Shown here in pieces: positions 4,406 through 24,884 of a stretch of DNA of 37,771 nucleotides. Within the stretch, counting starts at the first letter, position 1. Every line of letters begins with the position of its first letter. Below the pieces are notes generated by a model that saw nothing but the letters and a program-made list of their open reading frames with translations, was not told the DNA's origin and did not search any database. The DNA is from a bacterium (GTDB lineage: Bacteria > Verrucomicrobiota > Kiritimatiellia > CAIVKH01), in contig JAUIHQ010000006.1 in assembly GCA_030432155.1 (NCBI GenBank), positions 1-37,771 on the forward strand. The letters are read 5' to 3'. A program made the position numbers and the translations under genes.

Positions 4406-5311
4406 TCAGAACTCCCATCCGAAGTTGACAAGAATCTTTGCGGGATTGGCATCATCGGAAACGCCGAACAGCGGAGCGAGGTTCAGGTGTGTGTTGGGTA
4501 GCGGTCGAACCTGGATACTCGGTCCCACATAGAGGGATTTCTCAAAATTTCCACGGTCCTCCGCAGTGTCAGCCCATGCGTATTCCGCCTCCACACCGAT
4601 GGATAGCTTTTCATCCTGGATGGTTTTGCTGATGCCGAAGGTTCCCGCGTATTCTCTTTCCTTCTCATCCTCCAGTTCGGCTTCATATACGGCATTGAAA
4701 CCCCAATGCCAGCCCACGGTCAGCTCGTCGCCCAGCAGCAGTTTGTACTCCACTTTATCCGCCGCTTGATCCCGTAATGCGTACTCGGCGTACAAGGTCG
4801 GATTCCCGGGGATCACGCCCCAGTCAGCGAGGGCGTAGCGAAGTTCGAACAACTGGTCCACATAGGTCGGCCCCCCGTCACCCTCGTTGCGGCCAACCAC
4901 ATACAGGTCGAACTGGAATCGATACGGCAGCCCGAACTCGACTTCATAGAAGTTCTGAACCTTTGTCGGGCCGTCCTCGGGCACGTCCAGCCGCAGCCAG
5001 TATTCGAATTCCATCTTCCCTTCGGGAACGACATAGATTCTGGATCGGGGAAAACGGCGGTGGGCTGTCCATCGCGGCTGGCCATAACTCCCAATCCGGT
5101 CCTCCTCACGAAGGCTGGATACCTTCCGGCCGTCCACCTCAATAGCCGGAAGCTCCCATGATCGGGTACCGCGGTAATCCGACGAATCCTCACTCGAACC
5201 GCGGTCGCCCATGACAGCCGGGTTGTTCGATGGCACATCCGCGGCAAGTGAAGTTGAAAGCGGAAGGCACAGGAATAGCGCAATTTGGTACAGACTATGT
5301 TTCACCATCAT
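4406..5311 (-). CDS. Outer-membrane beta-barrel-like exported protein
   Basis: Signal peptide MMVKHSLYQIALFLCLPLSTSLAA, alternating barrel-like strands, terminal aromatic (VNFGWEF); AAGGAG adjacent; start could be the GTG at 5305. Confidence 0.7.
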   Translation of the reverse strand: MMVKHSLYQIALFLCLPLSTSLAADVPSNNPAVMGDRGSSEDSSDYRGTRSWELPAIEVDGRKVSSLREEDRIGSYGQPRWTAHRRFPRSRIYVVPEGKMEFEYWLRLDVPEDGPTKVQNFYEVEFGLPYRFQFDLYVVGRNEGDGGPTYVDQLFELRYALADWGVIPGNPTLYAEYALRDQAADKVEYKLLLGDELTVGWHWGFNAVYEAELEDEKEREYAGTFGISKTIQDEKLSIGVEAEYAWADTAEDRGNFEKSLYVGPSIQVRPLPNTHLNLAPLFGVSDDANPAKILVNFGWEF

Positions 5312-7696: not shown

Positions 7697-7793
7697 GACG
7701 CGTAGCTTATGGAATGGGCGGAAGTGATGCACGAGAAAAGGCGTTGGGAAATGGTGCGTACCTGATAAAGTGCAGCAGGAGGTTGGCGGTTGG

Positions 7794-10400
7794 ATGGACA
7801 TCACCTGGACAAAGGATGAGTGCATGGGATCCTTTACGGCGCGGTTTGACCGGGTCGCGGAACGGGTTCCGGATCATCCGGCGGTGATCGATGCCTCTCG
7901 CACCATCACCTACCGGGAACTTCAGGGCGAGACCCGCCGCATCGGCGCCGGCATCGCGTCGCTGCACGGTACGGAGCCGGTGGGATTGGTGATGGCTCAT
8001 GACGCCGTCACGGTGGCAGTCATCGTCGGTGCGATCCGCGCCACCCGGATATATGTTGTTCTCGACCCGACCGGCCCGGCCGATCGCAACCTAGGCCTGA
8101 TTCAGGATGCGGGAATTCGATACCTGCTTGCCGATCCCGCGTCCTATTCCGCTGCCTGCTGTTTCGCCGGATCGGAGCAGACCGTTGTCAGAATCGAAGA
8201 GCTGGCCGGGGATGAGCGTCGGCTTGATACCCTTCGGGCCGACGGGAATACGCCGGCTGCCATTTATTACACGTCCGGCTCAACCGGTGAGCCAAAAGGG
8301 ATCGTCTGGTGTCATCGGAATCTGCTCCACAAAGCGTGCTCGATGGTGCTTGCATGTGAACTCACGCACGATGATCGGCATGCTGTTATCACCCCGTTCA
8401 CCTTCGGAACGTCAACCGCACCGATGTTTAATGCATTGCTTTCGGGGACATCGACCACGGTGTATCCGGCTGTAAAGGGAAGCCTGGAGGATCTTCGCCA
8501 ACACCTGATCGACCACCACGTTACGGTGTTGACCCCTTCGGTGGCGCTTTTCCGATCAATGCTTTGTCACGAAAGCCGGGATCCGGTGGCGGAATGCGTG
8601 AGGGTTTCGATTATCGGCGGCGACAGGTATCACCCGCATGACGTTGATATCTGGAAGCGGTCGTTTCCCCGCTCTGCAATCCTCTTTCATGGTCTCTCCT
8701 CCACCGAAACCAACCTGATCGCCATGTATCGGATCGATCACGACACCCCGATTGACGGAGCCATCCTTCCGGTCGGAAAGCCTGGACCGGACAAGATCGT
8801 CCGGATTCTCGATCCCGAGGGACGGGAGGTTGCCCCGGGAGAAGAAGGAGAGATCGCCGTCCAGAGCCGATACCTGTGCAATGGGTATTGGAAACGTCCC
8901 GCATTGAATGCTGAGAAGTTTCGACCCGCGCTCGACGGCAGCGGGGAGCGGATGTTTATGACCGGCGATATCGGAAGGTTTGACGAAGACGGCAATCTGT
9001 ATCACCTCGGCCGGAAGGATTTCATGGTCAAGGTCCGCGGATTCCGGGTGGAGATCGGCGAAGTTGAAGCGGCGCTGCACCGGCTCGAGGCCATTCGGGA
9101 AGCGGTGGTCATAGCCCGCGAGGATGAAAAGAGGGAATCGTTCCTGACCGCGTATGTTGTGTTCAAGCAGGGATCCCGGCTCACGGTGGATGAGATGCGG
9201 CGTCAATTGGGCGTGTCGATACCGGGCCACATGATACCGACCGCCTTTCGGGTTCTCGATTCGCTTCCTCGAAGCACCGCCGAGAAGGTGGACCGTCGTG
9301 CGCTGCAGACCCTGGCCGGCGACCGGCTTGAATCCGAGGCATCCCGCCGTCCGATATCCACACCGACCGAGGTCATGCTGCAGCGCCTGTGGAAAAGCAA
9401 TCTCGGGAGAGAGCCGACAGATGTCGGCGATTCGTTCTTCAATCTCGGCGGAACATCCATTTCCGGCCTTGCACTGCTGGAAAGCATCCGCCGGTCCACC
9501 GGTAGAAATCTCCCGCTGAACCAGTTGTATCGATCACCGACGATCGAGGCCCTGGCCCGGGTGATCGACGGGACGGGAGATGATGCGGAACATGTTCGGT
9601 ATGTTATCCTGCAGTCGTCCGGCGGCGGCCCGCCGCTTTTTCTTGTTCCGGGCATCGGTTCCGATGCCAACTCTCTCCGGGATGTTGCTGCGGCGTTTCC
9701 GCCGGATCGCCCGCTTATCGGCCTGCAATATCCCGGGGTGGATGGCCGGGAGGCGGCAACCTCTTCCCTGGTTGAACTCGCAAATCGATGGGCCGATATC
9801 GTAGAGAAAATCTTTCCGGTCGGCCCCTGCCTGGTCGGCGGTACCTCGGGCGGAGGTGTAGCCGCGCTCGAGCTGGCGAGGGAGCTCCGAACGAGAGGCC
9901 GGGCGGTCCATCTTGTTGCGTTGATCGAGACCAACCTGCCCGGCCGGTGGTTGGTGCCGCATGGCCGCGGGTGGACGTTGCGATATCATCATCGAATGAT
10001 GGCGTGGATGCCCGCCGGTTCGAGGCATTGGCGCTGGTCCGACCTTGGTGCAGGCATTGCTCAGCACATCGGCCGGATGCGCGCGGTCCGGAGCGCCCGG
10101 CATCGTCAGGCCCGTGGTGACGCGCTTCCTCATGTGCTTCGGTATCACTATCTGCTCGATGCCGCCATCCGGTCGTTGCGGGATTACAAGCCTGCGTGCT
10201 ACACCGGCCGGATTGTCCTGTTTCGGGCCGAGCAGCCGGAACATGCATTCGCCACCGCCGACCCCGCGTTGGGCTGGAGCCCCTATCTCTCCGATCTTAC
10301 CATCGTCGATATCCCCGGCCGCCATGGCGCCCACATCCGTCCGCCCCATGCCTCGGTGCTTGCACAAAAACTGGCAGATGCATGCAAAGATGAAAGGTAG
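7794..10400 (+). CDS. Stand-alone adenylation - carrier (PCP) - thioesterase protein (NRPS-like, no condensation domain)
   Basis: A3 YYTSGSTGEPKGI, A5 HGLSSTETNL, A7 MTGDIGRF, A8 GRKDFMVKVRGFRVEIGEVE, A10 AEKVDRRAL; carrier NLGGTSISG; thioesterase GGTSGGG and PGRHGAHIRPPH. Confidence 0.88.
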   Translation: MDITWTKDECMGSFTARFDRVAERVPDHPAVIDASRTITYRELQGETRRIGAGIASLHGTEPVGLVMAHDAVTVAVIVGAIRATRIYVVLDPTGPADRNLGLIQDAGIRYLLADPASYSAACCFAGSEQTVVRIEELAGDERRLDTLRADGNTPAAIYYTSGSTGEPKGIVWCHRNLLHKACSMVLACELTHDDRHAVITPFTFGTSTAPMFNALLSGTSTTVYPAVKGSLEDLRQHLIDHHVTVLTPSVALFRSMLCHESRDPVAECVRVSIIGGDRYHPHDVDIWKRSFPRSAILFHGLSSTETNLIAMYRIDHDTPIDGAILPVGKPGPDKIVRILDPEGREVAPGEEGEIAVQSRYLCNGYWKRPALNAEKFRPALDGSGERMFMTGDIGRFDEDGNLYHLGRKDFMVKVRGFRVEIGEVEAALHRLEAIREAVVIAREDEKRESFLTAYVVFKQGSRLTVDEMRRQLGVSIPGHMIPTAFRVLDSLPRSTAEKVDRRALQTLAGDRLESEASRRPISTPTEVMLQRLWKSNLGREPTDVGDSFFNLGGTSISGLALLESIRRSTGRNLPLNQLYRSPTIEALARVIDGTGDDAEHVRYVILQSSGGGPPLFLVPGIGSDANSLRDVAAAFPPDRPLIGLQYPGVDGREAATSSLVELANRWADIVEKIFPVGPCLVGGTSGGGVAALELARELRTRGRAVHLVALIETNLPGRWLVPHGRGWTLRYHHRMMAWMPAGSRHWRWSDLGAGIAQHIGRMRAVRSARHRQARGDALPHVLRYHYLLDAAIRSLRDYKPACYTGRIVLFRAEQPEHAFATADPALGWSPYLSDLTIVDIPGRHGAHIRPPHASVLAQKLADACKDER

Positions 10401-12623: not shown

Positions 12624-14720
12624 TTAAAACATGACTTTTGCCGTTGCATACACATACCGGCCCGGCTGGGGAACCTCGTCGCCGGGTGCGAGATCGCCCG
12701 AAGCGAGCAGCGCCTCCCGGGTCAGATGTTCGTTGTATTCTTCATCAAGCAGGTTCTCGACTCCCACTTCCAGCTCAAGACCGCGGACGATCTCAACGCC
12801 GGCGCGGAGGTGATAGACCTCAAAGGCTCCGGTTTCATCCTCGGGGAAGGTTTCGTCGATCTTGTCCTGGCGGGCCGCAAACCGCATCCCCGCTTCGCAC
12901 CACCAAGGGCGCGTTTCGCTGTCCGCATCAAATCGCAGGGCAATCTCGCCGGACAGCGGCGGAATTTCCGGAAGGTCCCGGCCGTCGGTGGTATTGCGCC
13001 CGGCTACAAATGCAAGCGACGCGGGAACGGACCAGCCTTCGCCAAGGAGCAACTTCCCTTCGGCCTCGGCGCCGTAGAGTTCTGCATCGACGTTGCGGAA
13101 GCTGCGGATGTTGTCCGGTGCGCCGTCGCCGTTGACATCCATACGGGCCACGCTGGTCTGGTAGATATAGTCATCCACCTGCGCGGCAAACAACGAGATG
13201 TCGATGGAACCCTTTTCGTGGGTCATCACCGTTCCCACTGCCGCCTCCAGCTTGGTTTCCGGATCGAGGGCGGGATTGCCGACGAGGTATCCGCCGGGGG
13301 CGGGCGCGAAGGCGAAGAACTGTTCCGTGACCGCGGGGTAGCGGCTGACTCGTCCCGCGCCGGCGTAATACCGTACACGTTCGCTCGCCGCCCATTCCAC
13401 GAGAACATTGCCGGAGAACAGGGTTTCGTCCACTTCATCCACCGCGGCGTTCTCGCCGTTGAAACGCGCATACTGGTCGAGGATCGGAGCCGGGGGGGAC
13501 CCCATGCCGACCGCGATCAGGTCGTCCGCTCCGGCGGCCTCGCTCTGGGCGTAATCGACCCGGCCGCCGATGCGGAGGGTGATGGAGTCGCCGGCGTCCT
13601 GTTTCCACTCCGCGAATGCACCCACGATGTCGCGGGTGACGTCGGGCCAGATGTGGTCCCGGAACGTCATGCCGGAAGCAACCATGCGGCGGGTACGGGT
13701 GGCGTCCCGTTCCATTCGCTCCGCGTCGGTTCCGATCGTCAGCACGGACTGCTCGCTGATACGCCAGTCCGCTTCCGCTTTGCCGGCGTAGGATTTCGCG
13801 GTGGAAGGCGTCTCCGCTTCCATGATGCCGCGGTTCGGCTTGTCGGCATTGTCCATGAGATGATCGATGTCGGCCAGCCCGAGGCTGAGCTCCATCCGTT
13901 CGACCGATCCCTCTGCGGGCAGAATCCGATATCCGCCGAGGGCCATCCAGGCCGTCGACTCACGGATGTCCATGGGCAGCGAGGGGAAGTCAACGTTCTC
14001 TTCCCGTTTGTAGAGGACGGAACCGTATACCCGTTGTCCTTCGACCGGATCCCAGCCGAGGGAGAGCGAACCGGTATATTCTTCCAGTCCCGCGGGTACG
14101 GTTTTGCCGTCGGCCGATTCATAATCATCGAGATCCGCGGTGCCGGCTTCGGCCCGGATATCGAGATTCTCGTCGCCGCCTTCGGCCTTTACCGAAGCAG
14201 AATAGCCGTCGCGGCCATCATCCCAGGTGAAGGCTGCGGTACCCTCCATGCCGGGTTCGGCATCGGGACCACGTTGGACCGCGGGGTCCATGATCACCCG
14301 TCCTCCGGTCCCGCCGGGACCGAGGGTCACCGACGGCAGTGCTTTGACGACGGATACGGATTGCAGGGCATGCGCCGACACATACGAAGCCGGCGGATCC
14401 ATCCGCGAGGGACAGGCGCCGTACAGCGGCAGGCATCCGAGCTGGGTTTGGACCCGCTCCCAGCCCAGGCCGCGGATGACCGGTTCGGCCGCGTTGGCCC
14501 CCCGGTGGACCGCGGTAACGCCGGGCAGGCTTTTCACGGCTTCCGCGACCGACAGGGTCAACGGATTGTCCATCGCGGCGGCGGTCAGCGACCGTTCGCC
14601 CGGCGCCTGAAGCGGCGCTTTGACGTCAATGGGATCCAGGGCAGCCGGATCCTGGGCGGGTGACAGACCCGCAGTTGCAGCGGTCATCAGGACCGCAAGA
14701 CAGATCGATAGATTCTTCAA
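12624..14720 (-). CDS. TonB-dependent receptor, NosA/OprC copper-receptor-like
   Basis: Signal peptide, plug RSLTAAAMDNPLTLSVAEAVKSLPGVTAVHRGANAAEPVIRGLGWERVQTQLG, CPSRMDPPASYVSAHALQSVSVVK, C-terminal ENLLDEEYNEHL...ATAKVMF; proposed TTG start after GGAG (ORF remains open upstream). Confidence 0.85.
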   Translation of the reverse strand: MKNLSICLAVLMTAATAGLSPAQDPAALDPIDVKAPLQAPGERSLTAAAMDNPLTLSVAEAVKSLPGVTAVHRGANAAEPVIRGLGWERVQTQLGCLPLYGACPSRMDPPASYVSAHALQSVSVVKALPSVTLGPGGTGGRVIMDPAVQRGPDAEPGMEGTAAFTWDDGRDGYSASVKAEGGDENLDIRAEAGTADLDDYESADGKTVPAGLEEYTGSLSLGWDPVEGQRVYGSVLYKREENVDFPSLPMDIRESTAWMALGGYRILPAEGSVERMELSLGLADIDHLMDNADKPNRGIMEAETPSTAKSYAGKAEADWRISEQSVLTIGTDAERMERDATRTRRMVASGMTFRDHIWPDVTRDIVGAFAEWKQDAGDSITLRIGGRVDYAQSEAAGADDLIAVGMGSPPAPILDQYARFNGENAAVDEVDETLFSGNVLVEWAASERVRYYAGAGRVSRYPAVTEQFFAFAPAPGGYLVGNPALDPETKLEAAVGTVMTHEKGSIDISLFAAQVDDYIYQTSVARMDVNGDGAPDNIRSFRNVDAELYGAEAEGKLLLGEGWSVPASLAFVAGRNTTDGRDLPEIPPLSGEIALRFDADSETRPWWCEAGMRFAARQDKIDETFPEDETGAFEVYHLRAGVEIVRGLELEVGVENLLDEEYNEHLTREALLASGDLAPGDEVPQPGRYVYATAKVMF

Positions 14721-14838
14721 AGATTGTTCTCCACGTTTTGTAGGTAAGCTGGATGTCCGCTCAGTCGATGTGAACGTGACGAAGCGGCACAGCCTTCGGG
14801 CTGCCCCATATAGATAACGGCATCCAGGCGCGTTCGGT

Positions 14839-15255
14839 TCAGACGAAGGTGTCGGGAACGACGCGGGGAGGGGGAACGGCCGGCTCGGAGGAGAACTGGG
14901 ATCGGCACGTTGTGACGGTGCGGTATCGATCGTCCCGGTCCGCCGGATCCGGCAAGCGAAGGCGGAAGGATGAAAGCAATGCCTCCATGCGCAACGGGGG
15001 GGTGGGAACCGCCAAGCCTTCGGTGGCGGATGTGTCCCGGACCTTCGCCTGTTCGATGCTCTTGCACATCGGGCAGGGGTGGTCGCCGTCAAACGTGCGG
15101 GACAGACCTTCCGTCAGGCCGTATGAAGACGAGTACTCCACGATCATGCGGCTCCAGGCAACCGACTGAAGAAACATCCAGTGTCCCCCCATGGTCGCGA
15201 GCACCGCGACAAGCGCCGCGGTGGTGCCGGTGAATCTGAAGATACGCTGCATCAT
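14839..15255 (-). CDS. Small membrane-anchored HPCPMCK protein, putative metal-locus partner
   Basis: 138 aa: N-terminal hydrophobic segment, WMFLQSVAWSRMIVEYS, GDHPCPMCKSIEQAK; directly upstream of the receptor on the same strand. Confidence 0.65.
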   Translation of the reverse strand: MMQRIFRFTGTTAALVAVLATMGGHWMFLQSVAWSRMIVEYSSSYGLTEGLSRTFDGDHPCPMCKSIEQAKVRDTSATEGLAVPTPPLRMEALLSSFRLRLPDPADRDDRYRTVTTCRSQFSSEPAVPPPRVVPDTFV

Positions 15256-15340
15256 TATCCGGCCCGACAGACTGCCTTACACCCGGACGATTTGCAATGA
15301 AATCCCTGCCTGGCGCGGACGCTGGAAGAACGGGCTTTAC

Positions 15341-15361
15341 TTTGTTAGTTAAACTAATAAA
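15341..15361. promoter_or_regulatory. Putative ROK operator 1 (TTTGTTAGTTAAACTAATAAA)
   Basis: Palindrome around TTAGTT-A-AACTAA (15345-15357), between TTTACT (15336-15341) and TAAAGT (15358-15363), just before the SSS ATG at 15370. Confidence 0.7.
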
Positions 15362-15369
15362 GTGTCGGC

Positions 15370-17763
15370 ATGGATACGGGAAATGGCATTCTTCCTCTGG
15401 AGCCGCTCGTGGGCCTGGATTGGCTGGTGATCGGGCTGTTCTTCGCCGCGACGCTGGTGATCGGGCTGGTGTTCACCCGCCGCGCAACCTCCAGCATGTC
15501 GGACTATTTCGTGGCCGGCCGCAGGATGACCTGGTGGGTGGCGGGAACATCCATTGTTGCGACATCGTTTGCGGCAGACACGCCCCTTGTGATCGCGGGC
15601 TGGATGAGGACCGTCGGCCTGGAGCGGAACTGGTTCTGGTGGGGCGGGATCATGGGTATGATGCTTTGCACCTTCTTCTTCGCCCGGCTGTGGCGACGGG
15701 CCGAACTCCTGACCGATGTGGCATTCAACGAGCTGCGCTACGCCGGCCGTCCCGCGGCCGGTTTACGAATGTTCCACGCTTCGTACCGGGCCATCATACA
15801 GAACACGCTGGTCATGGGATGGGTGACCCTGGCCATGACCAAGATCATGGACGTCACACTCAACATACCCACGCTGGTATTTCTTGAAGGCCGATTTCTT
15901 CCCCATGCGGTTGCCAAGGGTGCGGATGTGGTGTCCGCAACTGCGCCATACATCATCGCCCAATGGCCCCTGCTGGGCGATGCGGTCATTCCCGCCAAGG
16001 TAACCGGGATCCTGCTCTGCCTCGGTATCGCCGCGCTTTACAGCACGTTTTCCGGGCTATGGGGGGTCATGGCTACGGACTTCTTTCAGTTTACCCTGGC
16101 CATGACCGGTACGATCGTGTTGATGGCCATCAGCTTCGCGGTTGTTGGCGGGCCGAAGGCCATGATTGAGAAGGCAACGGCCTCGGTTGAAAGCGGTGGC
16201 GTTCATAACCGCGCGGACACGGAAACCGAGGCCCCGGAACCTGATCCGGCGCTTCTGGCCGTGGGGCTGATGATGATCCCTCATGAAGGAAACCTGCGGT
16301 GGACGGCGAACGGCCTGTCGGAAGACAAGGTTGCCGCTCGACTTGCCGGGGCTCATCGAGATGATGTGCTTCGGGCGCTGGCCCGTTGGCGCCAAGCGTA
16401 CCTGATTCCCCTTTCCCGGTTCACCACGATGGAGTCCGCGGAGGCGCTGGCGGCTTCGGGATGGTTGATTCGCGAGGGCGATACGTTCCGACGTGCAGCG
16501 ATTCCCCTGCCGATGGAGGACGTCACGCATGCGCTGGATGCGGCAGGTATCCGGGACCGTGGCGAAATCATGGCCGCTCTGCGGGGTGACCGTGTGGTTC
16601 CGTCCTCGAGAATCACCCGCTTTCTTCCCCCGTTTGACCTGAGGGGCGGCGGACTACTCGCCGTCTGGTCGCTGGTCGTCTTTCTTGGTCTGCAATGGTG
16701 GGTCGGTGGTGAAGGCGGCGGGTTTCTCGCCCAGCGACTGTTCTCCTGCCGGAATGAGAAACACTCCGTGATGGCGATGTTGTGGTTCAATTTTCTTAAT
16801 TTCGCCGTGCGCCCCTGGCCGTGGATTGTTGTGGGTATTGTTTCTCTCGTACTGATTCCCGACATCAGTGCATACGGGCATGATTTCGATCAGGAGCATG
16901 CCTATGTGGTGATGCTGATGCTTCTGTTGCCCGCGGGAATCAAGGGACTGCTGGTGGCGGCTTTGATGGCGGCTTATATGTCCACGATCTCCACGCATGT
17001 GAACTTCGGCGCATCGTATGTAGTCCACGACCTGTATAAGCGATTTGTACACCGCACGGCATCGGAACATGTGCTGGTCAAAGTCTCGCAGGTCACCTCG
17101 ATCCTGCTTGCGATCCTGGCCGGGGTATATGCCTTCGTTGCAGATCATGTTGCGACCGGATGGTTCACGATGTTCGAGCTGATGTCGGGTACCGGGTTTG
17201 TTCTTCTGCTCCGATGGTACTGGTGGCGTATCAATGCCTGGTCGGAAATTTCGGCGATGATCAGCTCGTTGCTGCTCTATGGGTTGATGAATGGTACGCA
17301 CATGTTTCACTCCTTGTTTGAATCCATGGGGGCGCCGGCCTATCTCGTAGACGAATACGCGGTCCGGTTCACCCTCAACATCGCGCTGACGACGGTTGTG
17401 TGGCTGGCTGTCACCTTTCTCACCCGCCCCGAGTCGGAGGATCATCTTGTCCGATTCTATCGCCGGATCCGCCCGCCGGGACGTTGGAGCGCGATCGCCC
17501 GCAAAGCCGGTTATCCCCGCCATCTGAGCGTGGGAAGGGCGGAGTGGGCCTGTTGGGCCCTCGGGGTCACAGGATTGTTTGCCATGGTGTTCAGCGCCGG
17601 CCGATTCTGCTTCGGCCAATACGGTTCCGCGTGGGTATTTGCCGGTTATGCGGCGGTTGCAACATGGATTCTGTTCCGCCTGATCGGACGCATGGACTGG
17701 AGTGGATTGGATGCGGCGGACGACCCGAAAACATCCTCACCTGAAAAGAAGACCTCATCATGA
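15370..17763 (+). CDS. Sodium:solute symporter (SSS) family transporter with large cytoplasmic/soluble insertion
   Basis: DYFVAGRRMTWWVAGTSIVATSFAADTPLVIAG; GLWGVMATDFFQFTLAM; LLVAALMAAYMSTISTHVNFGASYVVHDLYKRF. Confidence 0.9.
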   Translation: MDTGNGILPLEPLVGLDWLVIGLFFAATLVIGLVFTRRATSSMSDYFVAGRRMTWWVAGTSIVATSFAADTPLVIAGWMRTVGLERNWFWWGGIMGMMLCTFFFARLWRRAELLTDVAFNELRYAGRPAAGLRMFHASYRAIIQNTLVMGWVTLAMTKIMDVTLNIPTLVFLEGRFLPHAVAKGADVVSATAPYIIAQWPLLGDAVIPAKVTGILLCLGIAALYSTFSGLWGVMATDFFQFTLAMTGTIVLMAISFAVVGGPKAMIEKATASVESGGVHNRADTETEAPEPDPALLAVGLMMIPHEGNLRWTANGLSEDKVAARLAGAHRDDVLRALARWRQAYLIPLSRFTTMESAEALAASGWLIREGDTFRRAAIPLPMEDVTHALDAAGIRDRGEIMAALRGDRVVPSSRITRFLPPFDLRGGGLLAVWSLVVFLGLQWWVGGEGGGFLAQRLFSCRNEKHSVMAMLWFNFLNFAVRPWPWIVVGIVSLVLIPDISAYGHDFDQEHAYVVMLMLLLPAGIKGLLVAALMAAYMSTISTHVNFGASYVVHDLYKRFVHRTASEHVLVKVSQVTSILLAILAGVYAFVADHVATGWFTMFELMSGTGFVLLLRWYWWRINAWSEISAMISSLLLYGLMNGTHMFHSLFESMGAPAYLVDEYAVRFTLNIALTTVVWLAVTFLTRPESEDHLVRFYRRIRPPGRWSAIARKAGYPRHLSVGRAEWACWALGVTGLFAMVFSAGRFCFGQYGSAWVFAGYAAVATWILFRLIGRMDWSGLDAADDPKTSSPEKKTSS

Positions 17764-18314
17764 AAAAAACACAACGAATGCTCCTGGCTCTTATCCTTGC
17801 CCTGTCGGCCGGTACGGCGGGAGCCGCCGACAACATCGCGGTGAATTCCGGTTTTGAAGAGTCCCCCGGCATGAACCGGGCCGAGGGTTGGCAGGGTGAC
17901 AACCCGGCCGGTTACGGAACCTTCGCCGGCATCGCCCGTACCGGGATCGCAGCCTACAAGGCATGGGCCCAGCCCGCTCTCTGGCAGGAGTTTCCCGCCC
18001 GTGCCGGCGATACCTGGAAGGCCTCGGCCTGGTTTCTGCATCCCGCGGAATCGGAGGAGGATCAACCGTTGTCCGGAGGCGCCTTTGCCCGGATCCGCCT
18101 CGAGTTCAAGAACGCGGATCACGAAACCCTGCATGCCGAGCACTCGGAAACGCTGAATGAACAGGATGCCACGAATGAATGGAAGGAGCTCGAGGTGAAG
18201 GGAAGGGTCCCGCTGGGCGCCGTGTACGCGCGGGTTGTCTTGAACATCGTATATGCCGGCGGCCAGGGCGTCGTGTATGTGGATGATGTCGAAATCGACG
18301 GACCCCGGCGGTAA
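17760..18314 (+). CDS. Secreted carbohydrate-binding-module-like protein
   Basis: Signal peptide MKKTQRMLLALILALSAGTAGA; NSGFEE...W...YVDDVEI pattern typical of jelly-roll CBMs; ATGA overlap with SSS gene. Confidence 0.65.
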   Translation: MKKTQRMLLALILALSAGTAGAADNIAVNSGFEESPGMNRAEGWQGDNPAGYGTFAGIARTGIAAYKAWAQPALWQEFPARAGDTWKASAWFLHPAESEEDQPLSGGAFARIRLEFKNADHETLHAEHSETLNEQDATNEWKELEVKGRVPLGAVYARVVLNIVYAGGQGVVYVDDVEIDGPRR

Positions 18315-18323
18315 GGTTGACGT

Positions 18324-20222
18324 ATGAGCCGATCCTTCATGATGTGGCTGGTCCTGATACCGGTTGCCTTCGCGGCTGCGGCTGCGGAGGAGGGCGGTCT
18401 GCAGGTTCTCTGGCGTTTTGATTCCGGTATCACCAACGACCTCGGCGGCGGATACAATGGATGGTCACGGGGAGAGGCGAAGGCGATCCCCCGCATCCGC
18501 CGCGGGGCGGGCCGGGGTGGCGCCGGCGCGGGGATGGATGTGGAGTACCGGGTTCGGAAGGGCGAGGCCGGGGTCTGGATGCACCTGTTCGATTCCCGCG
18601 CCCCGGCCGACGGTCGTTTGTTTGTCGATGCGACAGCCATGCCCTTTCTGTCGTTCTGGATCCGGGGGAAACGCGGAAACGAAAACCCGTCGATCCGCCT
18701 GGCCGATGCAGCATGGTTCGCACGCGATGACGCGGTCCGGGTCGGGCGGGTTCGAGATGTTCTGCCTGGAGGAATCACCACCAACTGGCAGGAGGTGGTG
18801 ATCCCTCTTGCCGGGGCAGGTGTGGATCCATCGTCCCTCGCATCGATCAGTTGGATGATGGAAGACGAAGGGGAAGGAGGATTTGTGATTGATGACCTGG
18901 CCCTTAAGTCAGCCCCCGACACGCCTGTCCCCTTGTCGACAAAGGCCTATCCCGCAACCAGCGACCGGTTGCGTCTTGCCCTTTGGGTGTGGTCGTCGGA
19001 AAGAGTTCTGACCGACCCGGTGGAACAGAAGCGGTTTCTCCGGTTCTGCCGTGAGCAGAAGGTGACGGATCTTTATATGCAACTCACTCCGGCGTGCGGC
19101 GTCGGAGATCCTGCGGATGCTGATTGTCCCATTCGGTATCCCGAGGAATGGGCGGGGTTGATACGGGCATGCAGCGGGTCAGGCATGAAGGTACATGCCC
19201 TGGAGGGGCGTCCGGACTATGTTCTCGCGACCTGGCATTCCCGGCTGCTTTCCCTGGTACGTGCGGTTGTCGCGTATAACGAAAGCTGTGCGCCGGCGGA
19301 ACGGTTTGCCGGCATTCGGTTCGACAATGAGCCCTACTTGCTCGCGGGGTTTCACGGGCCCGACCGGGCAGGGATGATCAAGGAGTGGCTGGACGGTAAT
19401 CTGAAAGTCATGGGTCTGGTGCGGTCGCTGGGCGCAGACTTGGAGGTTGGAGTCGATATACCGTTCTGGCTCGATGAATCCGAGGATCCGGTCATTCGTG
19501 ATTTCCGGTACGCCGGCAAGTCCCAGCCGGTTGCCTTCCACCTGATCGATCTTGTCGACCAGGTAACGCTGATGGATTACCGGGATACCGCCGGGGGTAT
19601 GGACGGCATCATTGCTCACGGCCGCGGGGAGGTGGACCATGCCGCGCGAACCGGCAAGCCGGTCCTGCTGGGGGTGGAGACGTTTTCCTATCCGCCCCGG
19701 TCCGTCACCTTTGCCGGATCCATGTCGGCGGATGACCACCGTAAATCCATGGCGGAAGGACCACTGGCCGGGAACTACCTTTGGGACTCATTCCGGATCC
19801 GCACGGTTTCCGCCGGCAGACGGGTGTGGATCGGCTTGATGCATGATGCGGAGCTTGAACCGGGAGCGGCGGAGTTGTCCGGTGCGCTGGCCTCCCTGGG
19901 CGACTCGCTGGCGCGGCTTCAGCCGGCAGCAAATACCCCGGAAAACGTAGAAGGTGTGTTTCGTGAATCCGTCGTGCGGGATCCCGAGCTATCCAACGTC
20001 CGGCGGTCCGGCCCATGGTTGACGGTCGATATCCGGATGCTCGACAAGGTGACATTTGCGGAAGAGACCCGGCGGGATGTGGAGCTTGCGTTTGAGGAAA
20101 CATCTCAGGCGTTTGAGGGTCATCGCGGATTCGGCGGGTTTGCCGTGCACTATTACGAAACGTGGCGGGATCTGCCTGCCGGTTTACATCAGGACGCTGC
20201 TTCGCAGGCGGGGGGCGAGTGA
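18324..20222 (+). CDS. Secreted two-domain protein: CBM-like N-terminus + putative TIM-barrel glycosidase-like domain
   Basis: Signal peptide; jelly-roll-like W.....FVIDDLAL domain; barrel-like region with FAGIRFDNEPY, VTLMDYRDTA, VLLGVETFSY. Confidence 0.6.
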   Translation: MSRSFMMWLVLIPVAFAAAAAEEGGLQVLWRFDSGITNDLGGGYNGWSRGEAKAIPRIRRGAGRGGAGAGMDVEYRVRKGEAGVWMHLFDSRAPADGRLFVDATAMPFLSFWIRGKRGNENPSIRLADAAWFARDDAVRVGRVRDVLPGGITTNWQEVVIPLAGAGVDPSSLASISWMMEDEGEGGFVIDDLALKSAPDTPVPLSTKAYPATSDRLRLALWVWSSERVLTDPVEQKRFLRFCREQKVTDLYMQLTPACGVGDPADADCPIRYPEEWAGLIRACSGSGMKVHALEGRPDYVLATWHSRLLSLVRAVVAYNESCAPAERFAGIRFDNEPYLLAGFHGPDRAGMIKEWLDGNLKVMGLVRSLGADLEVGVDIPFWLDESEDPVIRDFRYAGKSQPVAFHLIDLVDQVTLMDYRDTAGGMDGIIAHGRGEVDHAARTGKPVLLGVETFSYPPRSVTFAGSMSADDHRKSMAEGPLAGNYLWDSFRIRTVSAGRRVWIGLMHDAELEPGAAELSGALASLGDSLARLQPAANTPENVEGVFRESVVRDPELSNVRRSGPWLTVDIRMLDKVTFAEETRRDVELAFEETSQAFEGHRGFGGFAVHYYETWRDLPAGLHQDAASQAGGE

Positions 20223-21377
20223 TAATTCGACCAGGTGGGGTATGATCGCGCCGAGGGCGAGATCGTCGGGACCGATACCGCTGAATGCGATGTGGGCTCG
20301 CGGCGGATCATCCACCACGCCGGTTTCGCGAAGGACCTGGTACATGCTGTTCGCCTCCGCGGTTTCGCGCACCGTGGCGCCGACCAACGATTCCAACTCG
20401 TCCACATCCGAACCGATCACCACCCGGCCCGGCCCGAGCAGATCGAGCCCCCAGGCGAGGACCCGGCCCAGCTCCCGGGCAAAGGTTTCCCAGCATGCCC
20501 GGTAACCGGCGGGCGTTTCCAGGCTGGCTGCGATCAGCCGGTCGAGGGACCGCGGCGTGCCGGATGCCCGCTCCCGGCGGGCAAGGGCGAGGGGATGGGG
20601 AATATCGACCCGGATCTCCCCCGCCATGTGGGTCTCGCCCAGGTAGGCGCGTCCGTCGAGAACGATACCGCACCCGACCTCGGTCAATTGTTCTGCATTC
20701 CGTTGCCGGAGGTACACCAGCAGGTAGAGCAGGGAACCGGTCGAATGGTTGCCGCCGGTAAAACCCACCGCCAATGCCGCACTGGTTGCATTGTTCAGCA
20801 CGTGAACCGGAACACCCAGCCTCTCGTGGAGGGGGGCTTGCACGGACACATTGCGCCAGCCGAGCGGGCGGGACAACACAACCGATCCTTCATCGCGGCT
20901 GATGATGCCGGGCACCGAGATGCCCAGCCCGAGCAGACGTTTGCGGGCGATGCGGGCCTGGGTGCAGAGCCGCGCCACGACATCGGTGATGGAATCAAAC
21001 ACGGATTCCGGGTCAGACGCACCCGGCTCGATGTGTTCCCTCGCCACCGGTTCGCCGAGTAGATTCACAAGAATTGCGTGCATCGATTTCCGGCGGACCT
21101 CCACCCCCACGGCATACCCGCCCCCGGGATTGAGCTCGAGAAGGGTCGGCTGCCGTCCCCCGGTCGAAACCCCGAGGCCGGTCTCGCGAAGAAGTTGCTC
21201 ATCAATCAGGTGCTCGACGATCGACGACATCGAGGTTGCCCGGATACCCGTCAACTTCACCAGGTCGGCCCGGGAGAGGGTGCCGTGCTGCTGGATGAGA
21301 TCCAGCACGAGAGCCATGTTGATGCGGCGGTTCAGCTGCGGTCGGCCGCTGATGATGGTTGGCAACGGATCCTTCAT
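20184..21377 (-). CDS. ROK-family transcriptional regulator (XylR/NagC-like)
   Basis: N-terminal wHTH NRRINMALVLDLIQQHGTLSRADLVKLTGIRATSMSSIVEHLIDEQLL; ROK core LGLGISVPGII, VHVLNNATSAALA, GCGIVLDGRAYLGETHMAGEI. Confidence 0.88.
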   Translation of the reverse strand: MKDPLPTIISGRPQLNRRINMALVLDLIQQHGTLSRADLVKLTGIRATSMSSIVEHLIDEQLLRETGLGVSTGGRQPTLLELNPGGGYAVGVEVRRKSMHAILVNLLGEPVAREHIEPGASDPESVFDSITDVVARLCTQARIARKRLLGLGISVPGIISRDEGSVVLSRPLGWRNVSVQAPLHERLGVPVHVLNNATSAALAVGFTGGNHSTGSLLYLLVYLRQRNAEQLTEVGCGIVLDGRAYLGETHMAGEIRVDIPHPLALARRERASGTPRSLDRLIAASLETPAGYRACWETFARELGRVLAWGLDLLGPGRVVIGSDVDELESLVGATVRETAEANSMYQVLRETGVVDDPPRAHIAFSGIGPDDLALGAIIPHLVELSLAPRLRSSVLM

Positions 21378-21482
21378 GGTAGTGGCGCTATACCTACCAT
21401 TCCGAAGGACGGCTTTGCCAATGAAATCATTACGCGAACAGATCCCCGCCGCCGTCCGGCCGCGGGAAGGTTTGCCCTTGAC

Positions 21483-21503
21483 TTAATAAGTTTAACTAAT
21501 AAA
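21483..21503. promoter_or_regulatory. Putative ROK operator 2 (TTAATAAGTTTAACTAATAAA)
   Basis: 31-nt window (21477-21507) matches operator 1 region at 26 positions; lies between TTGACT (21478-21483) and TAAAGT (21500-21505). Confidence 0.7.
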
Positions 21504-21533
21504 GTGTTGGGTATGGTGAAACGGAGCGGATGA

Positions 21534-22214
21534 ATGAATAGATGTGCAGGTGTCATTATCGCCGGATTGATTGTCACGACAGGAGTGGCCCGGGCCGACT
21601 TCGTGCATTCGTTTGAAGCGGAGCCGGCGGACAGCGGACCGCCGGAGGGTTTTGGTGTCTTCGGGGCCGGAACCCTTGACAGCGGGGTGGCGTCCCTTGG
21701 CGGTACATCGGTAATGCAGGCTGCCTATGCTGTCGTTGATCTCGGTGGCGGGCCGGTCTTTTCATTCCGGTCCATACTTCTGCACGATACATTGACGACA
21801 CCCATGGATCTGACCGACCGGATCCTCGAGGTGCAGGTCTGGGCGGATGCGGCCATTACCGGGGCCGGGGGCTTTGTTGCATTCCATATGTACGATGCAG
21901 ACGGGACTGAGATGCGGACGACCTACGCGGATCTCTTTTCGCCGACCACCTCGCCCCAGACGTTTTCACAATCAATCAACGACCTGCCGACAACCGTGGC
22001 CGCAGGTTCGGTTCCCGGATTGGACACTGCGAATATTGTACGCTATGGCCTCGATTTTTATGATCAACCCAGCGCTCCGGACCAGGCCGTCACCTTTTTC
22101 GTGGATGATTTCCGGAGCATGGTGGTCCCCGAACCCGCATCCATCCTTCTTTTGGGGTTCGGCATGCTGATGGCCTGGGTAAGTGCCCGGCGGGGACGAT
22201 TTCATGTCGGTTGA
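21534..22214 (+). CDS. PEP-CTERM sorted exported protein (paralogue A)
   Basis: Signal peptide; C-terminal VVPEPASILLLGFGMLMAWVSARRGR. Confidence 0.85.
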   Translation: MNRCAGVIIAGLIVTTGVARADFVHSFEAEPADSGPPEGFGVFGAGTLDSGVASLGGTSVMQAAYAVVDLGGGPVFSFRSILLHDTLTTPMDLTDRILEVQVWADAAITGAGGFVAFHMYDADGTEMRTTYADLFSPTTSPQTFSQSINDLPTTVAAGSVPGLDTANIVRYGLDFYDQPSAPDQAVTFFVDDFRSMVVPEPASILLLGFGMLMAWVSARRGRFHVG

Positions 22215-24123
22215 CGGCGCCATCGGATCGTCCTGCCCCGAGCCGATTCTGTGGCCATGGCCATGTGCGGTGCGCCGCACCGGCGGGATCCACGAACTCG
22301 GTTCCGGCGATCAAATCCTGCAAGGGGATCTGTCGGCATCCGGATTTGATGCGTGGTGGGGCCGGGTGATCGATACCTGCCGGGATGGCGATACCGAACG
22401 GCATGTTACGTGCGGGGGGATTCATCTCCGGCTTGAAGGCCGGGATGCGGAATCACCGGAAGCATACCGGCTGAGCATCACCTCATCCTCCATTCACATA
22501 GCCGCGCCGACTCGGGAAGGACATTTCAGGGGATTCACCACGCTTCGACAACTTCTGCGGCAGTATGGCCCATCTGGATATCTCCCCTGCATGGACATAC
22601 GGGATGAGCCTGTTTTCCCCGAGCGAGGGTTGATGTGGGACATCAGCCGAAACCGCGTGCCCACCCTGGCGGCTCTGTACCGGCTGGTCGATCTGATGGT
22701 CGAGTGCAAGCTCAATCACCTTCAGCTCTACACCGAGCACACCTTTGCCTACCGGGAGCATCGTGAGGTGTGGAAGAACGCATCCCCGTTGACAGCAGAA
22801 GATGTAGATGCCTTGAGCCGGTACTGCGGGGAGAGGCATGTCCGACTGGTTCCCAATCAGAATTCCTTCGGGCATCTGCGGCCGTGGTTGAAGCACCCCC
22901 GATATCATCACCTCGCGGAATGTCTTGAGGAGGTGGATACGGAGTTCGGACGGCAGGTGGAGCCATTCGGACTGTGTCCGCAGGAGCCCCGTGCCCGCCT
23001 GTTCCTCGCCGGGCTGTACGATGAGCTGCTACCGCATTTCGGGGGGGATCTCTTTAATGTCGGGTGTGACGAGACCGTGGATCTGGGGAAGGGCCGGAGT
23101 GCGGCGGTGTGTGAAGAGAAAGGTGTTGGCCGGGTCTACCTGGACTTTCTTTTGCAGATCGACGACCTGGTGCGGACGCGCGGACGACGGATGATGTTCT
23201 GGGCAGACATGATGAATCGATACCCGGAATTGATTCCGGAGCTGCCCGGGGATGCGATTCCGTTGGTGTGGGATTATGAGGCCGATGCTGCGTTTGGGCC
23301 TCACCTTGATCGCTACCTCGATGCCGGTTTGAAGCCGTGGGTGTGTCCCGGAACCGGTACATGGAACTCGCTGGGCGGGCGATTGGAACAGGGCCTGGCC
23401 AACATGCGCAGGGCGGCACGCCAGGGGCAATATCATGGGGCGTCCGGCTATCTCGTCACCGACTGGGGCGACAACGGCCACTGGCAACCGATGGTGGTTT
23501 CGTTCCCGGCGGTCGCGGCGGCCGGGGCATATGCCTGGTCATCCCGTGAACCGCACCGGCGCGACCTGGTGGATGCAATCAATGTGCATATTGTTTCCGA
23601 TGGCAACGGGCGGATGGGCGATATTCTGTACGAGATGGGGAATCTGTACCGTCTGTTTCATCTCCAGCCGTTCAATGCATCCACCCTGTTTCATGCCCTG
23701 TATCATTTCGATCAGGATCTTCATATGGCGGATGCTGTGTATGGAGAAAAGGACCGGGCGGGATTTCTGCGAAGCCTTGAAGCGATGAACGGCTTACGGA
23801 GCGCCCTCTCCTGTGCGATGCCCCGGTGTGACGACGGCAGTCTGTGCCGCAACGAGGTCGGCATGGCCCTTTCCGGAATGGAGCTGGCTTGTCGCATCGC
23901 CCTTGCCCGGCTTGATCACCAGGGAGCCGGCGTGTCCGGATTACCGGATCCGGTCCGGCAGGACCTTGGCGCGGCGGTGGGCGCCTTTCGGGATGTGTTT
24001 CAGGCGACCTGGTTACACCGTTCCCGGCCGGGGGGATGGATCGACAGCATCCGACCGCTGGAGCTGCTCCATGCGGCGTGCTGTTCACCGGAGCGGGTCG
24101 GTCCGGCAGGCGTGATTTCGTGA
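22204..24123 (+). CDS. Glycoside hydrolase family 20-like (beta-N-acetylhexosaminidase-like), probably cytoplasmic
   Basis: GLMWDISRNRVPTLAALYRLVDLMVECKLNHLQLYTEHTFAY, FNVGCDET (Asp-Glu), TDWGDNGHWQP; no signal peptide; overlaps upstream PEP-CTERM gene by 11 nt. Confidence 0.82.
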   Translation: MSVDGAIGSSCPEPILWPWPCAVRRTGGIHELGSGDQILQGDLSASGFDAWWGRVIDTCRDGDTERHVTCGGIHLRLEGRDAESPEAYRLSITSSSIHIAAPTREGHFRGFTTLRQLLRQYGPSGYLPCMDIRDEPVFPERGLMWDISRNRVPTLAALYRLVDLMVECKLNHLQLYTEHTFAYREHREVWKNASPLTAEDVDALSRYCGERHVRLVPNQNSFGHLRPWLKHPRYHHLAECLEEVDTEFGRQVEPFGLCPQEPRARLFLAGLYDELLPHFGGDLFNVGCDETVDLGKGRSAAVCEEKGVGRVYLDFLLQIDDLVRTRGRRMMFWADMMNRYPELIPELPGDAIPLVWDYEADAAFGPHLDRYLDAGLKPWVCPGTGTWNSLGGRLEQGLANMRRAARQGQYHGASGYLVTDWGDNGHWQPMVVSFPAVAAAGAYAWSSREPHRRDLVDAINVHIVSDGNGRMGDILYEMGNLYRLFHLQPFNASTLFHALYHFDQDLHMADAVYGEKDRAGFLRSLEAMNGLRSALSCAMPRCDDGSLCRNEVGMALSGMELACRIALARLDHQGAGVSGLPDPVRQDLGAAVGAFRDVFQATWLHRSRPGGWIDSIRPLELLHAACCSPERVGPAGVIS

Positions 24124-24149
24124 GAAACCTCTTTACACGCCGACCGACC

Positions 24150-24170
24150 TTTGTAAGTATAACTAAATAA
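24150..24170. promoter_or_regulatory. Putative ROK operator 3 (TTTGTAAGTATAACTAAATAA)
   Basis: Aligns with operator 1 core TTTGTtAGTtaAACTAA; 34 bp upstream of second PEP-CTERM gene. Confidence 0.6.
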
Positions 24171-24203
24171 GGGTGGGGCGGGCTGTACTCATCCGGTATC
24201 GTC

Positions 24204-24884
24204 ATGAACGCCAAGCATTCAGCTGCCGTCGCGGGACTGGCCGGCTGCCTTTTGTTGTGCCCATGGGCAGGAAAGGCGGCGGTCCTCCTGCAGGATGATT
24301 TCGACGACCAGCCGGTGGGGTCGGGGAACCCGGATGATTTCATTGCCTTCGGCGCCGGCCTCGCCGACCGGGGCATTACCAGTCTTGATGCGGTATCCGC
24401 CCCCAACTCCGCTTACCTGTCGGTAAATTTTGACAATGGCTTTGCCGGGATGATCCGCCTTCCCTTTTCACCCTATGTCACCCTCAGCAATATCAGCGTT
24501 GCCGTGCGTGCAACCTCTGATCTGAGTTCGAACCTTGGTATGTTCGGGTTTCAGCTTGTGGATGCCGACGGGACCGCGGCTCGCACCCAGACCGGCGACC
24601 TGCTCAGTCCTTCGACCGCCTTCCAGGTATTCGAACAGGATGCGTCAGCCATCAATCTTATCACGTCCCCGGGGTCCATCGCCGGCCTGGACACCACGCG
24701 GATCGTTCAGTTCGGTTTCCTTGTCCTCGACCGCGGGGATCTCTCCGGCGCCGCTTCGTTCTATATGGATGATCTGGAGCTCGAAGGCTGGGTGATACCC
24801 GAGCCCGGAACCATCGCTTTCCTGCTTATCGGCCTTGGCATGATGGCCCGGCTTCGCCACCGGACAACCCCCGCTACGGCCTGA
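24204..24884 (+). CDS. PEP-CTERM sorted exported protein (paralogue B)
   Basis: Signal peptide; C-terminal VIPEPGTIAFLLIGLGMMARLRHR; DADGT..RT..GDL.SP.T..Q.F pattern shared with paralogue A. Confidence 0.85.
   Translation: MNAKHSAAVAGLAGCLLLCPWAGKAAVLLQDDFDDQPVGSGNPDDFIAFGAGLADRGITSLDAVSAPNSAYLSVNFDNGFAGMIRLPFSPYVTLSNISVAVRATSDLSSNLGMFGFQLVDADGTAARTQTGDLLSPSTAFQVFEQDASAINLITSPGSIAGLDTTRIVQFGFLVLDRGDLSGAASFYMDDLELEGWVIPEPGTIAFLLIGLGMMARLRHRTTPATA

Follow-up and report, generated by a model that had tools for sequence, protein, structure and literature searches.

A probable ROK-repressed N-acetylhexosamine-glycan regulon with PEP-CTERM proteins in Kiritimatiellia

Among the closest described systems is that of Bifidobacterium NagR, a ROK regulator with palindromic operators that overlap promoters and with a regulon that has grown from a local nag cluster (PMC9599254). 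Likewise, the ROK protein ChiR of Thermotoga controls chitobiose uptake and nagAB (PMC3750489). In the open literature, outside which most subscription papers lie, we found no paper that pairs PEP-CTERM either with the ROK family or with Kiritimatiellia names. The locus described here lies in a window of 37,771 nucleotides (the whole stretch of DNA that was analyzed), which makes up the whole of contig C401 in a Kiritimatiellia draft genome, a MAG with 466 contigs, a total of 3.89 Mb and 86% completeness.

Gene content and candidate operators

The features of the locus are listed below by position in the window.

15340-15362, no strand: candidate operator 1, 23-bp palindrome CTTTGTTAGTTAAACTAATAAAG, with the SSS start codon 7 bp downstream
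15370..17763, + strand: SSS sodium:solute symporter, 797 aa, presumed importer (PF00474, E 7.7e-30)
17760..18314, + strand: small secreted protein with signal peptide, CBM4_9-like by eye
18324..20222, + strand: secreted putative glycosidase, CBM11/30-like jelly roll plus TIM barrel with GH18-like features (CBM30, E 2e-4)
20184..21377, - strand: ROK regulator with N-terminal HTH, of a subfamily without the zinc motif (PF00480, E 6.6e-21)
21478..21505, + strand: promoter-like TTGACT-16-TAAAGT, coinciding with operator 2
21482-21504, no strand: candidate operator 2, palindrome CTTAATAAGTTTAACTAATAAAG, between the ROK gene and the PEP-CTERM/GH20 unit
21534..22214, + strand: PEP-CTERM protein 1, with signal peptide, CBM-like beta sandwich and PEP-CTERM anchor (PF07589 above cut-off)
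22207..24123, + strand: GH20 beta-N-acetylhexosaminidase-like protein without signal peptide (PF00728, E 5e-17; ORF called from 22183)
24149-24171, no strand: candidate operator 3, palindrome CTTTGTAAGTATAACTAAATAAG, upstream of the PEP-CTERM protein 2 gene
24204..24884, + strand: PEP-CTERM protein 2, sharing a domain with protein 1 (PF07589 above cut-off)

The genes form three units, namely the symporter, small secreted protein and secreted enzyme (unit 1), PEP-CTERM protein 1 and GH20 (unit 2), and PEP-CTERM protein 2 (unit 3). The ROK gene sits between units 1 and 2 and is divergent from unit 2. An earlier, sequence-only reading of the window had called the SSS, CBM/GH, ROK, GH20 and two PEP-CTERM genes correctly, and had also rightly placed the ROK gene inside the locus, divergent from operator 2. 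Its statement that there is no SusCD pair holds for the locus, but it had missed a TonB-dependent receptor gene that adjoins the locus divergently. The product of this gene, the sole TonB receptor nearby, is copper-receptor-like and not a SusC, and the gene has no operator upstream. The non-Sus layout that had been proposed, with PEP-CTERM proteins, secreted CBM/GH, SSS and cytosolic GH20, agrees with this gene anatomy.

Each palindrome consists of two 9-bp arms and a 5-bp spacer, 23 bp in total, with the consensus CTTWRTWAG-N5-CTWAYWAAG, and extends one base further at each end than was first reported. The sites do stand directly before the SSS-CBM-GH unit, the PEP-CTERM-GH20 unit and the second PEP-CTERM gene, as had been claimed, with operators 1, 2 and 3 lying 7, 29 and 32 bp from the respective start codons. 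This placement would suit a repressor, as has been argued for NagR (PMC9599254). The best intergenic palindrome pair scores 32.5, a value reached by 0 of 300 dinucleotide shuffles (maximum 26). Allowing at most one mismatch, the core motif has this locus as its sole location in the draft genome. With the pattern CTTWNWWAG-N5-CTWWNWAAG and at most two mismatches, there are 3 matches in the assembly, all at the locus and each with 0 mismatches, versus 24 for a reversed-pattern control. The genome scan that had been proposed as a check therefore finds the sites to be exactly three and not scattered.

That these palindromes serve as general promoter elements or as hairpins, and not as operators, is hardly credible. 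Operator 2 does coincide with the TTGACT-16-TAAAGT element, but a promoter element would be common in the genome, where the palindrome occurs exactly three times, and foreign sites vary in their distance to the promoter. Promoter-like elements number 2 versus 3.1 expected, and shuffled sequences contain them no less often; the overlap at operator 2 is therefore no more than suggestive.

The half-site TTAGTT/AACTAA had been likened to XylR-type operators. This resemblance is loose, with arms that are 1 bp apart here and about 11 bp apart in XylR operators, and the XylR-type reading was dropped because of this difference in spacing. When 146 relatives were searched for a 16-mer core with 1 mismatch allowed, the matches were scattered, and the core proved too short to be informative.

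Regulator, transporter, enzymes and surface proteins

The regulator combines the ROK domain with a MarR_2-like HTH at residues 23-64, which is the winged HTH plus ROK architecture, and its nearest PDB relatives are Lmo0178, Mlc and XylR. Its best NCBIfam match is NagC (NF047937; 2.3e-29), at 102.8 bits far under the curated cut-off of 650. The zinc motif CxCGxxGC is absent from the protein and from all nine aligned relatives, and the place of ExGH is occupied in this subfamily by AGE-x-VDIxHPL, so that the ExGH histidine is missing. Both motifs are kept by many ROK members and are not strictly defining. As judged from the alignment, their absence sets a subfamily apart without removing the protein from the ROK family. 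It also means that the inducer is not readable by analogy, and that one of the GlcNAc type cannot be taken for granted. The two other recognized HTH-ROK proteins of the genome retain the zinc and ExGH motifs.

The symporter has SGLT1/2 and vSGLT among its sequence relatives. Similarly close relatives are confined to 5 of the 346 genomes of the class, every one of which has further members of the system. For the small secreted protein encoded next to it, a Pfam search gave no match.

The secreted enzyme, modeled with a pLDDT of 78, matches CBM11/30 with its N-terminal domain and GH18 chitinases with its barrel in Foldseek. Its TIM-barrel family, which combines a CBM with the GH18-like fold, has at least 477 relatives in our scan, and residues D334, E336, D378, Y419 and E452 are invariant. 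Judged against the GH18 signature, which we take to be DxxDxDxE, the family consensus beta-4 motif FDGIHLDNE is one position away, with an acidic signature position replaced, and the window enzyme itself departs at two positions. The D and E of the DNE motif are invariant, and there is an M-x-Y on beta-6 as in GH18 chitinases. Pfam Glyco_hydro_18 gave no match at E values up to 10 in six members of the TIM family, and a direct assignment of the barrel to GH18, lacking Pfam support, was not adopted. A short PDB relative of the enzyme, 10yv, is labeled a putative GH97.

The GH20 protein scores 62.6 bits with PF00728 versus a cut-off of 22.3 and retains the catalytic Asp-Glu pair, its VGCDE aligning to LGGDE of 6je8. 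In the related genome G018, a GH20 relative (46-52%) adjoins a gene of the TIM family.

Many environmental bacteria encode abundant PEP-CTERM proteins, whose roles are mostly obscure. The two proteins of the locus match both PF07589 and TIGR02595 above cut-off, with signal peptides judged by eye, and the genome encodes exosortases, including one on contig C56 (exosortase, E 1.8e-56). The model of PEP-CTERM protein 1 is weak (pLDDT 63) and gives a beta sandwich with matches of the CBM4/11/16/22/30 type, which are to be read as fold class only. From this model, the PEP-CTERM proteins resemble carbohydrate-binding modules.

The motif in related genera

Orthologs of the ROK protein (42-49% identity) are found in 6 of the 345 other genomes of the class. 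When the 346 Kiritimatiellia genomes were searched with a pattern derived from the window only (CTTWDTWAG-N5-CTWAHWAAG, at most one mismatch), 17 of the 345 others had matches. These comprised 3 of the 6 with the ROK ortholog versus 14 of the 339 without it (hypergeometric p = 0.002), and this co-occurrence, together with the positions of the sites, is what links the ROK protein to the operator. Among the ROK-less genomes, the genes next to 13 of the 14 matches were inspected, and none was recognizably related to the system. The match in G044 lies 13 bp upstream of a kinase-like/PIG-L deacetylase/NagB operon that is followed by a PEP-CTERM protein and an SSS symporter. In G168, the match is upstream of a TIM-family gene, of the same secreted hydrolase family as in the window, and in G046 it is upstream of a gene whose secreted TSP3-like product has a relative in the TIM/GH20 array of G018.

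A wider pattern, CTTWNWWAG-N5-CTWWNWAAG, was designed after one of the G044 sites had been seen. It finds only two sites in G044, upstream of both units of the locus including the PEP-CTERM gene, and a second site in G046, 22 bp upstream of NagB. The sole site with at most one mismatch in G089 ends 1 bp upstream of the ROK start codon, and an additional site with two mismatches there is upstream of a CBM-like gene. G018, with 138 wide-pattern matches, was left out as evidence, and no such site accompanies the ROK orthologs of G021 and G103. A matrix trained on foreign sites only ranks the three window sites first, with scores of 34.4, 32.2 and 30.2, and the next position scores 4.1. Read at this level, four related genera carry a matching site before like genes, and the sites that had been predicted for orthologous loci are present (G044, G168, G046 and G089). 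As in NagC-type regulons, one operator motif is found before amino-sugar catabolic genes, through the NagB/PIG-L operon of G044 and the NagB gene of G046; NagB equivalogs score above cut-off. The genome of the window has a kinase-like/PIG-L deacetylase/NagB operon of its own on contig C324 (49-55% identity), with no operator upstream.

The palindromes might instead serve another regulator encoded elsewhere, with the ROK gene a mere neighbor. We regard this as improbable on a survey that covered the ROK family: the genome has six further ROK-domain genes that could supply such a regulator, but its remaining HTH-ROK proteins carry the zinc motif, the motif matches track the ROK ortholog, and a site stands directly upstream of the ROK gene in G089 and adjoins this gene in the window.

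At TIM-family loci of other phyla, a matrix scan found no window-like sites. Since the ROK proteins there are only distantly related (25-32%), their operators would be expected to differ. De novo palindrome pairs at seven loci (L117, L118, L122, L125, L045, L135 and L137) were unconvincing, and those at L112 and L135 are hairpin-like.

A second pairing of ROK protein and motif appears in G046, where an SSS symporter with 61% identity over the whole protein adjoins a different ROK protein (25% identity). A de novo search found matching palindromes upstream of this ROK gene and of the symporter. The motif has only four locations genome-wide (control, none): between the ROK gene and a divergent GH94-like/CBM/TIM unit, and upstream of the symporter, of a pair of phosphohexomutases and of a gene with the domain of the PEP-CTERM proteins. 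In G168, a GH94-like gene, SSS symporter, ROK gene, three genes with this domain and two phosphohexomutases lie together, and the end of a TIM-family gene precedes the symporter. The motif sites of G046 and the cluster of G168 thus suggest that two ROK-operator pairs, only distantly related, converge on one target set.

These clusters bear on the substrate. The same ROK regulon could act on beta-glucan or another neutral glycan, with GH20 and NagB as side players, and we consider this unlikely, though less so than control by another regulator. In its favor, glucan-binding CBM11/30 modules are the closest matches to the N-terminal domain of the secreted enzyme, and in G168 and G046 the system is accompanied by two phosphohexomutases and a GH94-like phosphorylase whose nearest relatives are cellobiose phosphorylases. 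However, the GH94 superfamily includes chitobiose phosphorylases too, the operator lies upstream of NagB or deacetylase genes in G044 and G046, and a neutral glycan fits poorly with the GH20 of the window and of G018 and with the GH18-like barrel. The NagB and PIG-L deacetylase neighbors, the GH20 and the GH18-like fold together favor N-acetylhexosamine glycans.

Proposed regulon and comparison with known systems

From the palindromes, their uniqueness in the genome, their conserved placement and the genes around them, we infer that the locus is very probably a locally ROK-repressed regulon for the utilization of N-acetylhexosamine glycans, including in this reading the binding, repression, inducer, substrate and protein locations. 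The ROK protein (20184-21377), most likely a dimeric repressor, would bind the three 23-bp palindromes and block transcription of units 1, 2 and 3, and possibly of its own divergent gene, until an inducer derived from amino sugars frees the operators. The two PEP-CTERM proteins would then keep the glycan bound to the cell surface through their carbohydrate-binding-like domains for cleavage by the secreted GH18-like enzyme. The symporter would import the product, the cytosolic GH20 would trim it, and the sugars might then enter the pathway of the kinase-like/PIG-L deacetylase/NagB operon on C324.

A broader proposal, to which we give even weight for and against, is that Kiritimatiellia possess a non-Sus mode of surface glycan capture, in which exosortase-sorted PEP-CTERM proteins serve as surface receptors within a ROK amino-sugar regulon. 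It would include a new GH18-like family, a ROK subfamily that senses without the zinc and ExGH motifs, and a target set transferable to another ROK protein and operator. In at least two genera, or three when the unanchored homolog of G046 is counted, the shared operator would link some PEP-CTERM proteins to the capture of glycans and the catabolism of amino sugars. Moreover, the 23-bp ROK motif is usable for mapping regulons in uncultured Kiritimatiellia, the analysis brings to light a widespread uncharacterized CBM plus GH18-like family, and the locus may offer a case in which two ROK-operator pairs, distant relatives of each other, govern one target set.

By analogy, a NagC/NagR-like amino-sugar regulon is a better comparison for the locus than XylR. 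Like the system of Bifidobacterium NagR (PMC9599254), it has a ROK regulator, palindromes, and NagB and amino-sugar glycan genes as apparent targets. The NagR regulon differs in having ABC importers, a NagA-type deacetylase and different operators, and in having no PEP-CTERM proteins. The HTH plus ROK architecture is shared with NagC and Mlc of E. coli and with Thermotoga ChiR, whereas the window protein belongs to a subfamily without zinc CxCGxxGC and ExGH, and uptake would be by SSS instead of PTS or ABC systems. With Foldseek matches, a beta-4 motif that in the family consensus is close to the signature, and M-x-Y on beta-6, the secreted enzyme resembles GH18 chitinases (clan GH-K), but it has no Pfam GH18 match, departs from the signature at two positions and carries a C-terminal extension. 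On the evidence of its genes, the locus is also similar to Bacteroidota PULs in combining surface binders, a secreted hydrolase, an importer, a cytosolic exo-enzyme and one local regulator. Unlike those loci, it has no SusC/SusD and would rely on SSS uptake, and the CBM-like PEP-CTERM proteins would replace the surface glycan-binding proteins. ROK control of amino-sugar regulons is already known from NagC, NagR and ChiR; the novelty of the locus is in its parts and not in the kind of system.

ROK loci and a tandem array in relatives

Genes for CBM4_9-like secreted proteins lie on either side of the ROK ortholog in the relative G089, and this locus (L136, 3068-6677) carries window-like sites at 4723 and 5994 as well as a weaker site at 4628. 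In more distant loci from Planctomycetota (L112, L117, L118, L119 and L122), ROK, SSS, TIM-family and PEP-domain genes are co-located in differing sets; operators were not found at these loci.

In another relative, G018, a unit of 11.5 kb containing a TIM-family gene, a GH20 gene (46% identical) and CBM_11-like and TSP3-like genes occurs in at least seven tandem copies, located at both ends of the 3.1-Mb contig WLWN01000001 (L041, L042, L053, L055, L078 and L079). This arrangement reflects either gene amplification or an effect of assembly.

Other genes of the window

7770-10400, plus strand: free-standing, NRPS-like adenylation-carrier-thioesterase protein
12624-15092, minus strand: TonB-dependent receptor that most resembles copper receptors, with a sub-threshold score of 293 bits against TIGR01778
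14839-15255: small CxxC-bearing membrane protein accompanying the receptor

The receptor gene is divergent from the SSS unit, and no operator is present upstream of the receptor gene.

Associated phosphorylases and a possible amino-sugar route

L044 12143-14794, minus strand: GH94-superfamily phosphorylase
L134 1095-3779: GH94-superfamily phosphorylase
L044 18821-19999: sugar-kinase-like protein
L162 5903-7360: sugar-kinase-like protein
L199 225-1712: sugar-kinase-like protein

The phosphorylases, which share 48% identity, represent a family of ~890 amino acids that is associated with the system in two genera. The sugar-kinase-like proteins are 49-51% identical in the pairs compared, and those of L162 and L044 have no Pfam match. 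Genes for a PIG-L deacetylase and NagB are found downstream of the kinase-like gene both in the relative G044 and in the window's own genome (GCA_030432155.1). It is possible that these genes together provide a route from GlcNAc through GlcN to GlcN-6-P.
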